The notes beneath the pieces were generated by a model, which saw nothing but the letters and a program-made list of their open reading frames with translations, had not been told where the DNA came from and made no database searches. Position numbers and translations under genes: made by a program. This document shows positions 740 through 5,100 of a stretch of 5,971 nucleotides of DNA, piece by piece (the stretch's first letter is position 1; every line of letters begins with the position of its first letter). Source of the stretch: Lachnospiraceae bacterium (GTDB taxonomy: Bacteria; Bacillota; Clostridia; Lachnospirales; Lachnospiraceae); contig JAILPU010000096.1 in the NCBI GenBank assembly GCA_024699395.1, positions 1-5,971 of the forward strand, given 5' to 3'.

Positions 740-2071
740 TTATTCGGTAGCCTGGTCCTCTTCTTCGTTCCGATTGCTTATAGTAAGAATATAGATGATA
801 TTGGAGATGTTCTCACTAAGATCACCGGAAGAGATAGAAACTGGAGTTGAAGGATTTTCAACACAGATTCTTATGAGACAGTTGCCACCGGAAAGCTTGG
901 TTATAGCTGATGATAACTTGTCTCCGCTGAGGCATGTATTAATCTTATCTACGTCACCTTCGTTGGCAGATACTTTGGTATTGACCACTGTTCCGCCTTT
1001 TTTGCCAGATAAACTGCCTGTTTTGAAGAAAAAATTGATACCACCCTCGCTATCGTCCAATTTGAGAAGATTTATACTTCTTAAGAAATCATCTCTGTCA
1101 ACGACTACCTTTGATGAGTATGGAAGTTGATCCCATTTATCGATAATAGACTCATATATAGCAGGGCATTCACCTGCAAGAGCAAAGGTTGCCAGGATGT
1201 TATTTGCCTGTAAAAGCAGGTTCTGCGGTGTAAGGATTGCTGACACTACATCAGCCTCGGAGAAGAGCTTTCCTATGATACCGGTTGATGCGCCCGCAAG
1301 TGCAAAAGAGATGCTCTTTGTGGGATCATACCCTTCTTCTTTTGCCAGTGCTATCAGTGCTTCAGTATCATTGCTTACAAGCTGAATCTTTTCCATAAGT
1401 GTCTTTTTGTCAGCATCCGACAGTGCGTTACCCTTGTCCCTTAAGTAGGTAAGAGCACTAAAGGTAGTGTTCTTTTCAAGCTTTATAGGGCACCAAGCTT
1501 TAGAAGCTGCGGTACCGTCACAAGAATAAATGTAAGCCTTCTCATCTTTGAGAACTATTGCAACCCTGTCTGTGATGCCTTTAGGGTCTGCTCCCGGTGT
1601 TGCTATATAACCACCGCGGTTAAGGGTTATAAAGAAGTCCTTACCAAACTTCATTTTGCAAAGTGTGCAGTCAAAATCCGTTTTGAGAAGAGGCTCACAA
1701 TCCTCATCAGACACAACTGATAAAGGAATTACAGCTTCCTTACCCACTTTAAAGTTAACGATTTTTTCGGATATATCCCAGACTATATCGGAGTTGTACT
1801 CTTTAAGTGCTGAAATAGTTTGAACAAACTGTGAGGCTTTAAGGTTGAATGATGCTGTTTTAGGCTCTTCATCAGATACTTTACCGGATATAGTGGCTTT
1901 AAAACCGACATCTACCATTCTTCCTGTGTCAACAATGGTTAACTTGGATGCAAGACCGTCTTCGAGCTCTTTGATACCGATGTTTACACGAATCTTGTTT
2001 GTTTTGTTTGCAAAAGGGTTTACGTTTGATACCAGATTGTTAGCAACTTCGTTTGTTATTTTTATCTTCAT
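740..2071 (-). CDS. Divergent DNA sliding clamp (DnaN / Pol III beta-like)
   Basis: The 443-residue protein appears to carry the three DnaN domains in order. Domain 1 (about 1-122) starts MKIKITNEVANNLVSNV and holds ASFNLKASQFVQTISALK (73-90), like the clamp segment where a core helix follows a strand. Domain 2 (about 136-315) has RVAIVLKDEKAYIYSCDGT (169-187), comparable with the DnaN DGKLTLVATDGHR strand-turn. Domain 3 (about 320-433) is clearest: KVVVDRDDFLRSINLL (321-336), NTCLSGDKLSSAITKL (378-393), RICVENPSTPVSI (401-413) and a final strand NIIYILTIS (424-432), matching the DnaN pattern YLldaLk...dplsPvvi...yLilPvr. Typical clamps are about 370 residues; the extra length lies mainly in a helical stretch at about 205-300 and in an acidic tail, NRNEEEDQATE. 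Clamps encircle DNA and tether polymerases and other partners. The neighbouring helicase ends in a clamp-binding motif, which supports the call. An unrelated fold is possible, since the match is from pattern reading, not a search. The start is unusual; see the entry at 2072-2104. Confidence 0.7.
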   Translation of the reverse strand: MKIKITNEVANNLVSNVNPFANKTNKIRVNIGIKELEDGLASKLTIVDTGRMVDVGFKATISGKVSDEEPKTASFNLKASQFVQTISALKEYNSDIVWDISEKIVNFKVGKEAVIPLSVVSDEDCEPLLKTDFDCTLCKMKFGKDFFITLNRGGYIATPGADPKGITDRVAIVLKDEKAYIYSCDGTAASKAWCPIKLEKNTTFSALTYLRDKGNALSDADKKTLMEKIQLVSNDTEALIALAKEEGYDPTKSISFALAGASTGIIGKLFSEADVVSAILTPQNLLLQANNILATFALAGECPAIYESIIDKWDQLPYSSKVVVDRDDFLRSINLLKLDDSEGGINFFFKTGSLSGKKGGTVVNTKVSANEGDVDKINTCLSGDKLSSAITKLSGGNCLIRICVENPSTPVSISSGDLSENISNIIYILTISNRNEEEDQATE

Positions 2072-2104
2072 GTTTTTTTTGGAGCGTTTTAACGCTCTCT
2101 CCTT
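2072..2104 (-). promoter_or_regulatory. Ribosome site with a hairpin between Shine-Dalgarno and start codon
   Basis: The only good Shine-Dalgarno sequence for the clamp gene is AAGGAG at 2104-2099, 27 bases before the ATG at 2071, which is too far for normal use. Between them lies a perfect inverted repeat: GAGCGTT (2097-2091) and AACGCTC (2088-2082), followed by C, a run of eight A and C. If the stem folds, 16 bases are removed and the effective spacing falls to about 11, a workable value. The GGAG of the ribosome site (2102-2099) could instead pair with CTCC (2084-2081), which would hide it. There is no usual in-frame start codon closer to the AAGGAG, so the ATG at 2071 remains the best start. 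Folding of this kind is known at some phage T4 ribosome sites (genes 25 and 38). Confidence 0.6.
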
Positions 2105-2118
2105 TCCAATTTGTTTAA

Positions 2119-5100
2119 TTAAAATGCCATATCAAACAACGAACGTTGTCCGACTACTTCTTTTTTTCTGGGTTTTGCCTTTTTCACGGGAACTATGTTA
2201 GGTTTTTCTTTTTCTTCTTTAACCGGTTTGCTTGTAAATAAAAGATTATTAAAGATACCGGCAAAGAAGTCTTCAAAACTTTCAGTTTCCTTTATGTCAG
2301 GCATGATTGTCTTGTCGGGACTATTCTTTTCTTCTTCAATCCTGTCTTTAGCAGGTTTGGATAAGAAATCTTCAAAGGCAACTTCACCTGTATATTTCTG
2401 TTTTCCGGTCAATTCCCAGAAGTTTAAGGACTTTTTGAATGTAGAATAAGAATCATCTACGGTTTCGTTCGATGTTTGTAAAGCATCAAACATGTTTTCC
2501 AGGGTATCTCTCGAAGTCATATCCCCGGAAGATAATGCTGCGGCAAGCTCCGTTCTTGCATCAACGCCTTTTGCCATGGAAGCTAAGCCTTCAGCCGAGA
2601 AGTGTCCCTGAATAGCTGCGGTTGACACTTGTTTTTTGGCCATAATACGTAAGGCTTCAGCCTGAAGGGTTCCGTCATATGCAAGGTAATAGTTTCTGCA
2701 CTCGCATTTTTGATTAAGACGAAAGGCTCTTCTTGATGCCTGCCATATAGTGGCAAGAGAATAGCTTGTCTGATAGAAAATAAGGGTTGGATAATTATAA
2801 AACCTGCCATTGTACTTAAAACAAAAATCCAAGCCTGTTTCTACGTTCATGGGATTGGTTATGAATACCTTTATTCCCTCCGACGCTTTTTTATGGAACC
2901 ACTCTTCTCTTTTGGAAGCTTCGGGTGATGAAGACTGGATTATCTCCACAGCACCTTTCAGATTGCATCTTTCTTCAATGATCTTTTTTAATCTGTAAAC
3001 TACGTTTGTATCAGGAGACCGTGTAAAAGAGGCATAAATAAAGAGGTTTCTATTTTGCGAAATCTCCTTGTTTACTATGTCTATAAGTGCTTCCTCTTTT
3101 GGAAGAAGCATTTCGGTCTCATACTCATTGAATTCTTCAACGTTACAGACTATACTGTCTTTTCTGTAAGGGTCTTTTATGTATTTAACCCCATACGGCT
3201 TGTCCAGATAGGAAAGACCGAACTGGAGAAGGATTGATAATGCACTCATTCCAAGGTTTGTTTTGCTTTCCTGCTTAAGAATCTCAAGTACGCGCTTATA
3301 CTCATGCCCTACTTCATTGGGCACTTCAACAAGCTTAACTTCTTCATGGAATTTAGGTAAGAACTTTGACAAATCCGAAATATCCATAAAGAGACACCTG
3401 TCTATAAGCACTTCACCGAATAAGACCGGCGAAATACCGGGCATAAGTTTCGGAGGTGATAACTGCTTACCTCTGCTGAACTTATTCTTCAAAATGTCGT
3501 AATTGGCTTCATATACGGTTTCCACACAACCGTAGGTTTTGCAAAACCTCATCATTTCAGAAGACGAATACTTATACCCTTTATCAATAAGCTTTTTAGG
3601 TTCAAGCATAAAAAATAAGTTATAAAAACTGCCGGCTGTACCGTTTGAGATTGTTCCGGTTAAGCAAAGAGTAAATTTACTTGCCTTAATAAGTGCATGG
3701 GCGGCTGTTCCCTGGGCTGATTCGCCAAGATATTTGTGGCACTCGTCGAGAATACAGAAATCAAAAACACCCTTAAGATACTTTTTTATGTACCTTGCGG
3801 GTGCTACCTTTCTGGGACCGTATTCCTGAGAGACATATGACCATCCATCAACTGTTACCTGTGCGTCCTTATATGCCTTTTCATTAGCCTTTCCATTTAA
3901 TATCCAGGACGTCTTCTTCGTTTTTTTCCTATGATTTGCAAAATGCGAGACTCTCCTCCATTTGGGTAAGATTTTTTTAGAGTCGTCTGTAGTCAGAGGT
4001 TTTGCATTTGCTCCCCATAAGGGATAATCGCAATGGTAACACTTTTCATTGGTGCTACATTTTGATGCCATATCAATAGGAGAAAGAATTATAGAATCAA
4101 TCCTATCATCAAAAGAAGAGCTTTCGGGACATAATCCTTTATACCGTAATAAGAGGCCGTCACAGTTGGGACAGACAAGACCTCTTTTCATACCATAATA
4201 GGTAAGTTCATAGGGGATAAAGTTGCTTCCATGACATACAGGACATTCAGCATTCTTGCCGACGCCTTTTTTATAGTTAATTGAGTGATCGTCATGGTAA
4301 CAGTCTGCACATATATCGAGTGCAACATATCTGGATCTTATATGTGTCGGTGTAGGGGAATACATGGTATCAAGCTTACAAAAATCCTTGGAAAAGATAT
4401 AAAACTCCTTACCTTTCGGATTTTTGCGTTCTTCTCTTAAAGTAATAAGCTGTGACAGATGTCTTACTATATCCACCTTTGCGTATGGGATCTCCGACTC
4501 TATCTCTGCCTTCCACTTTTCTAAAAGATGCCCGGGAGCCATAACAGCAACCCTGTAATGAATGATATCCTTATCCATGTATGCGTCTTTTAAGGTTTTT
4601 CCGGGATTACTCTTTAACCAGTCGCCTATTTTTGCGGCTTCGATAGCGGATATAGTTTCGAGCGTCTTGCCACACCCCATGCCGTGGTTTATCACTGCAT
4701 AGTTTATGCCGTTATCACGCATGGCCAATACACCGTTTACTGTTGCAGCCTGCTGGGGAAAGAGGCTTTTTTCCATTAAGGCGAGATTATCGACGTTTGG
4801 TTTAAGAGCTGTCAAAGGAGAAAGCTCTTTATCGAGGTTATCTACAGCCTTTTTGCCGTATCTGGTGAAATAATCGTCAAGCCCGTTGATATTAAGGGGA
4901 CTGATGGGGCTATCACACATTTTGATCTCTTTTTTCCTCAGTGATTCACAAATAACGCTTTCTAAAGCATCCTCTGTAAGGCATGAGAAGTCGATTGCTA
5001 CAAGGTCGGCTATATCAACTTCTTTTCCGTGAAGCTTTAAGTTAATCTCGTTATGTGGTTCCTTTTCCTTTCTTAGGTAGGATTCTCTAACAAGACGCTT

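Follow-up and report, generated by a model that had tools for sequence, protein, structure and literature searches.

Which sliding clamp, if any, is bound by the tail of a SNF2-type helicase that ends in a clamp-binding motif and whose gene lies directly upstream of a clamp-like gene? The question is raised by a stretch of 5,971 nucleotides from a Lachnospiraceae bacterium (the window, analysed over its full length), which is contig C322 of a genome bin of 1.9 Mb (76% complete, 333 contigs). Four main ORFs, all on the (-) strand, make up the window, and their features are collected in Table 1. The clamp gene starts 47 bp past the helicase stop. At this junction a stretch of 60 nt has a folding energy of -9.8 kcal/mol (z -2.8), and the hairpin, situated between AAAGGAG and the clamp ATG, could set the translation of the clamp. 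The DNA of the window likely belongs to a mobile element.

Table 1. Features of the window, with positions counted from its first nucleotide
Feature	Position	Strand	Basis
Adenine methylase, C-terminal part (DUF6094-like), cut by contig end	5503..5970	(-)	phmmer/BLAST match to the methylase upstream of the L005 helicase (E 2.7e-22), and others
SNF2-type ATPase/translocase, 1122 aa	2119..5487	(-)	Pfam, PHROG, motifs, Foldseek
Walker A of helicase, GMGCGKT	4663-4683	(-)	sequence
Helicase insert with eight Cys	4030-4311	(-)	alignment
DECH of helicase	3736-3747	(-)	sequence
Helicase C-terminal tail (residues 1033-1122), with predicted disorder and many Lys towards the end	2122..2391	(-)	AF2 pLDDT <50; low column conservation
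QRSLF, of the clamp-binding consensus (Q-L-x-L-F type), helicase residues 1114-1118	2134..2148	(-)	sequence; consensus in PMC4549789
Intergenic stretch with inverted repeat between AAAGGAG and clamp ATG	2072..2118	(-)	fold energy
Divergent DnaN-type sliding clamp (predicted), 443 aa	740..2071	(-)	family profiles and model
Clamp residues 184-189 (CDGTAA), opposite the LDGHRI loop of host DnaN	1505..1522	(-)	hhalign alignment
Three-helix insert of clamp, residues 202-245	1337..1468	(-)	AF2 secondary structure; gap in hhalign to host DnaN
Clamp residues 429-431 (LTI), opposite the C-terminal LPV of host DnaN	779..787	(-)	hhalign alignment
PDDEXK_2 (PF12784) nuclease/transposase-family protein, just after clamp, cut by contig end	3-617	(-)	Pfam

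The helicase carries the features of the SWI2/SNF2 group, namely a Walker A motif, a DExH motif and the SNF2 core fold. ResIII and SNF2-rel_dom both match above the Pfam cut-off, the PHROG match is a DNA helicase, and the eight cysteines of the insert are invariant across 31 alignment rows. The AF2 model has a mean pLDDT of 77.5 and a pTM of 0.58; its Foldseek neighbours are mostly SNF2 proteins (Mot1, ISW1, Chd1, CSB, Rad5, and RapA), at a query TM of about 0.3. Among these neighbours, Mot1 and RapA strip proteins from DNA or polymerase. An earlier, sequence-only reading had called the protein SNF2-like, and Pfam, motifs and structural neighbours bear this out.

The same reading had placed a beta-clamp binding pentapeptide near the helicase end, behind a flexible charged linker, and both parts are upheld. 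QRSLF is followed by the last four residues, DMAF, and the region ahead of it is Lys-rich, gapped and weakly conserved, with predicted disorder (pLDDT <50) throughout the tail. A search with the helicase returned 96 proteins, 94 of them close (its own sequence included), with P0100 and P0101 set aside as distant; after seven shorter proteins were dropped, 87 close homologues of at least 1070 aa remained for counting. The form Q..[LMIV][FL] occurs within the last 35 residues of 60 of these 87 tails; when the same tails were shuffled 500 times, the average was 4.6 and the highest count 12. The strict form Q.[SDTNA][LIM]F is present in 50 of the 87, where shuffling gives 0.4 on average. In the protein bodies the former pattern has a frequency of 0.04 per 35 residues. 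In an alignment of 31 of the 96 proteins, Q1114 is conserved at 94% and F1118 at 90%, whereas columns 1000–1110 average 37%. Conservation of the motif is an established observation; retention of QxxLF among the homologues, which had been proposed as a check, is incomplete, with 27 of the 87 tails deviating from the canonical form. Several of these have a near form (GQSSFF, GQLSFF, and HLSLF), and in others, P0091 and P0093 for instance, no form of the motif is found in the tail. PMC4549789 gives Q-L-x-L-F as the consensus for C-terminal beta binding, and a conserved QLxLF-type motif in a predicted flexible terminus is what the helicase family presents. As judged from sequence and model, a conserved Gln and Phe within a variable tail of predicted disorder are what one expects of a short docking motif borne by a flexible arm. 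It is very improbable that the motif is vestigial or arose by chance and binds no clamp; the 27 non-canonical tails would suit such an origin, but it does not account for 60 matches where 4.6 are expected, in a poorly conserved region of the protein.

The neighbouring gene had been read as a divergent sliding clamp, and this assignment, drawn from family profiles and a structure model, is supported. Searched alone, the window protein gives no Pfam clamp match and no PDB sequence match. Its one Pfam match, to Nif11, lies under the cut-off and falls in the helical insert, and a Nif11 identity was rejected. The clamp profile A3 matches the PDB with a best E of 1.9e-22, and hhalign of the element-clamp profile to the host DnaN gives a probability of 99.3 and an E of 7.5e-21; the smaller five-row profile A1 gives no significant match (PDB E 0.029; hhalign prob 1.7). 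A Patescibacteria DnaN was also matched, at E 7.4e-9. In Lachnospiraceae-family genomes the clamp profile recovers host proteins, the 27 best of which all have three DnaN domains; in the genome bin of the window only a partial DnaN, under its cut-off, is present. Clamps that match above Pfam cut-offs lie beside the helicases of L016, L060, L123, L175, L177, and L178. In the model the DnaN fold is predicted across the whole length, at about 10–14% identity in structural alignments, and the last eight residues (436–443) are predicted to be disordered. The product is thus a predicted DnaN-type clamp, distant from DnaN in sequence and similar over its full fold, from which it differs in the low identity, the three-helix insert, the likely element-borne gene and, for the window protein, the lack of the pocket proline. 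The LDGHRI loop of the host DnaN presumably borders the peptide pocket, and we take the pocket to carry a C-terminal [LM]P[VM]. T430 of the window clamp stands at the site of the pocket proline in the hhalign alignment; the relatives have LPV, MPV, or CPV, and L008–L011 have forms such as IIRI. In a tree, 20 element clamps fall on one side of a single branch from nine of the 27 host DnaN proteins. This tree, built with L007, L012, L013, L014, and L020 left out, has long branches and unsettled bootstrap values, and supports neither one nor several origins of the clamp pairs.

The pairing of helicase and clamp recurs across genomes. The search that gave the 96 database homologues did not include their gene context, so the evidence for pairing comes from 79 loci in named genomes, 20 of which (L002–L021) are close relatives. 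Two of these 20 (L019 and L021) end inside the helicase, and in all 18 with downstream DNA a clamp gene adjoins the helicase 3' end, with gaps from -4 to 110 bp; in L007 and L014 the contig stops within the clamp gene. Since 13 of the 18 loci supplied rows of the clamp profile, profile matches there arise by construction, and the claim is carried by position and by the Pfam and PDB evidence; in the other five (L007, L012, L013, L014, and L020) and in an extra pair, L090, the clamps were found by the profile. In a survey of the Lachnospiraceae family, the helicase was present in 3 of 397 genomes, including the window's own and the L015 genome (G039), and a clamp lay beside it in all three. In the corresponding survey of the class, four of 391 genomes besides the window's own, all from other families, have a helicase at E <1e-40. 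Three of the four have a clamp with DnaN domains above cut-off downstream, either overlapping the helicase gene or up to 660 bp distant from it, and in the fourth the contig extends for 105 bp past the helicase; helicase tails in this survey include GQLTLFDIAV, EQLSLFDLAG, and DQISLFDLLAS. The genes and their order are established. Helicase and clamp distances are correlated (Mantel r 0.94, 14 pairs, 0/5000 permutations), but plain co-inheritance of a single block would also produce both this correlation and the adjacency.

More distant pairs were also observed. On the Subdoligranulum variabile plasmid OY725881.1 the gap between the two genes is 6 bp and the helicase tail is QLSLFDLF; in L060 the gap is 28 bp and the tail, NQFELPLF, lies outside the canonical pattern. 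The helicase ORF of L178, from the survey of the class, ends without the motif, and its reading frame looks broken. A tblastn search with the Subdoligranulum clamp gave seven records. One is the query's own; the rest have <60% identity, and several carry the annotation dnaN. Distant helicase matches occur in 83 to 87 plasmid records, and among three examined a clamp lies beside the helicase only in Subdoligranulum. The loci L082, L083, L085, and L086 were rejected as clamp pairs; a 401-aa gene after their helicase reads by eye as RtcB-type and has no clamp profile match. On a Thermoanaerobacterium plasmid (L121) the helicase follows a DUF6094 gene and has two motif-like sites at its end, GQINLF and GQLMFDF, and no clamp was found beside it.

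The motif is less uniform than the pairing. It had been stated that homologues beside the same clamp but devoid of the motif would speak against a tether, and on this point the 18 clamp-paired loci are mixed. The canonical form with Gln is present in six (L002–L006 and L018) and a near form in two (L015, QMSFF; L016, QPMYSLF, with Met at the Gln position); Met replaces Gln in eight (L007–L013 and L020), as GM or KM for GQ, and the motif is absent in two (L014 and L017), as it is in the extra pair L090. Among these, L011–L013 and L020 share one common helicase tail. The complete clamps of the Met group (L008–L013 and L020) are without a C-terminal LPV, and those of L017 and L090 end in MPV. The Met-for-Gln tails, the altered clamp ends and the absent motifs may reflect co-adaptation or loss. 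A plasmid of the isolate Sporofaciens musculi WCA-9-b2 has the module, and the helicase tail there is devoid of the Gln.

These variants bear on whether the helicase tail docks on the host DnaN instead, as the QLxLF of transposases does, with the element clamp serving only an element polymerase. PMC4549789 offers the transposase precedent, a short C-terminal beta-binding motif on an enzyme of a mobile element, and canonical QLxLF suits ordinary DnaN. Furthermore, of 65 distant homologues, 13 (Deltaproteobacteria, Anaerolineae, a Helicobacter, and one viral contig) have the motif at their end and no clamp was found in their flanks, which vary in length, and because of this the host clamp is likely used somewhere in the wider helicase family, as far as sequence comparison can indicate. 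For the family treated here such docking is rather unlikely: the clamp gene is next or next but one after the helicase in several separate lineages, and the Gln is replaced in L007–L013 although the sampled family DnaN is conserved (46–76% identity to one row). In the transposase case the partner is the host clamp (PMC4549789), whereas here a clamp gene lies directly alongside.

In relatives the pair belongs to a larger block than the sequence-only reading assumed: an adenine methylase accompanies it, often together with DnaE and a clamp loader. In all 18 loci with upstream DNA, the helicase gene is directly preceded by one for an adenine methylase (with NPPY in 17), and Pfam assigned DUF6094 in the two tested (L005 and L018); five such proteins went into the local methylase profile. 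Rows of the profiles for methylase, DnaX and delta' also came from several of the 18 loci, whose matches therefore arise by construction. DnaX was searched in 19 genomes or records, 18 of them distinct (G039 = G407), with L013 left out. Twelve of the 18 have a DnaX above cut-off on the same contig as the helicase, four have an extra DnaX on another contig (G000, G397, G400, and G408; possibly of the same element), and no extra DnaX was found in two (G411 and W01). Ten of the 12 genomes with DnaX on the helicase contig have another above cut-off elsewhere, and no other is listed for G403 and G404.

The 12 helicase contigs were fetched for their DnaX match, and in all of them the DnaX gene is on the helicase strand, 1.7–15.5 kb upstream. 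Adjacent to it or close by, each contig has a delta'-like gene, recognised with a local profile derived from four of these genes. Full-length DnaE is encoded on six (L158–L163, two of them nearly alike) and SSB on one. Pfam supports DnaX in L015, L017, and L018, and in L163 it supports DnaX, DnaE and the delta'-type protein; there NCBIfam names the small subunit delta', below its cut-off. The element DnaE has QTPLF in four of the six and a QSSL-type form in two, at a position that we take to be the site of the internal clamp motif. In the window's genome, a second DnaX and an SSB (Pfam) are present on the 5.5 kb contig C147 (L170, 142-1569 and 4113-4586), possibly another piece of the same element. 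Three proteins of L163 (6579-8123, 8981-10195, and 17828-19492) have no Pfam family, with look-alikes by eye in several other blocks, and could hold the missing delta or a primase-type function.

Such genes could form a private replisome, in which clamp, DnaX, delta', SSB and sometimes DnaE would work together as a second machine of Pol III type for copying the element, with the SNF2 protein remodelling forks or removing roadblocks in it, independently of methylation. The presence of DnaX, delta'-like, DnaE and SSB genes on helicase contigs agrees with this, as do structural neighbours such as Mot1 and RapA. A eukaryotic SNF2 member, ZRANB3, provides a further parallel. According to PMC5481773, it is an ATP-dependent endonuclease recruited to stalled forks by PCNA. 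It works alike, as a translocase brought in by a clamp through a short peptide, and differs in being eukaryotic, in its HNH nuclease and in having no dedicated clamp, so that likeness and not membership is meant. Against a role independent of methylation, the methylase is next upstream in 18/18 loci, compared with DnaE on 6/12 and SSB on 1/12 contigs, and we consider this explanation unlikely. Host-clamp use and a private replisome are rivals, yet not mutually exclusive.

The reading we prefer, to which we give about an even chance, is that the tail of the helicase links the methylase–SNF2 dyad to the clamp of the element, on element DNA that has just been synthesised. The gene order kept over very divergent lineages, the co-divergence and the clamp-type sites of the element DnaE likely point to the element clamp as partner. 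The proposal of a translocase tethered to an element-encoded clamp stands in its parts, namely the translocase, the motif, the predicted clamp fold and the recurrent pairing in related and distant loci, and is weakened by the replacement or absence of the motif in 10/18 loci. We infer that the clamp would be loaded at primer junctions by the element DnaX/delta'-type loader, whose genes are found in relatives, either when the element is copied or when a transferred strand is made double-stranded. The QxxLF tail would then dock in the clamp pocket, and the tethered translocase would move along the new duplex, stripping proteins or presenting sites to the methylase, so that element DNA is protected from restriction or the fork is cleared; the host clamp may be a second partner. 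The last step is modelled on the known methylase–SNF2 dyad, and its action together with replication, whether in methylation or clearance, would extend that model. More broadly, and more tentatively than the tether itself, clostridial mobile elements may carry a second, self-contained Pol III-type processivity system (clamp, loader, at times polymerase) whose clamp is the landing platform of the methylase–SNF2 pair, by which element DNA would be marked or cleared while it is made, with no need of the host clamp.

The dyad of DNA methylase and SWI2/SNF2 helicase is known from phages, plasmids, and conjugative transposons, with DarB of phage P1, which protects DNA in cis against type I restriction, as its archetype (Iyer et al. 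2017, PMC5512222). The present loci resemble it in that mobile DNA pairs an adenine methylase with an ATPase of SNF2 type, and differ from it in the separate genes, the C-terminal clamp motif, the dedicated clamp and, often, the loader. In the main text of PMC5512222, the words clamp, DnaN, sliding, DnaX, and processivity do not occur. Phages of the T4 type also encode their own clamp and loader, and as replicons so equipped they are alike; in contrast, the loci here have VirB4-like and PrgI-like genes and bacterial DnaN/DnaX-type proteins. Open-access literature gave nothing on point, among the matches listed, for plasmid- or ICE-encoded clamps, loaders or SNF2–clamp links, and no paper on DUF6094. 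Each component is of a known kind, and the combination was not found in the open-access literature among the matches listed. The methylase–SNF2 dyad is a known theme of phages and conjugative elements. The motif with a dedicated clamp and loader, if true, would give a testable reason how the dyad finds its own DNA, that is, by following the element replication machinery. In the same way, there would be a likely conjugative replicon with a private clamp and clamp-loader, a test bed for two clamps in one cell, a bacterial counterpart of PCNA-guided translocases, and a mobile element that owns a replication-coupled DNA-handling machine.

The element is likely conjugative. VirB4-like matches were obtained in all five proteins tested (L003, L004, L005, L008, and L017), all under NCBIfam cut-offs, and in L003 the TraG P-loop is above cut-off; no type IV secretion ATPase is visible on the window contig. 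Of the two relaxase families searched, PF03432 has no listed match on any of the 12 fetched helicase contigs and occurs elsewhere in 11 of 17 genomes, and TrwC was found in none of the 17 genomes or records. A viral origin was rejected: among viral contigs, searches with either window protein gave no relatives, the clamp alignment gave none and the helicase alignment seven; phage records gave five distant helicase matches. A defence system was likewise set aside, since PADLOC, given eight proteins, reported nothing for helicase or clamp; on the neighbouring methylase it reported methylase-type models, in L018 mad2 of MADS. Downstream of the clamp in L018 and beside an SSB gene, a 1141-aa protein (13352-16777, (+)) has RuvC_1 and Cpf1-type domains and is Cas12-like. 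In L157 (11167-14867, (+)), the interval between dnaX and the methylase contains what look by eye like type I-C Cas5, Cas8, and Cas7 genes, together with an HNH gene.
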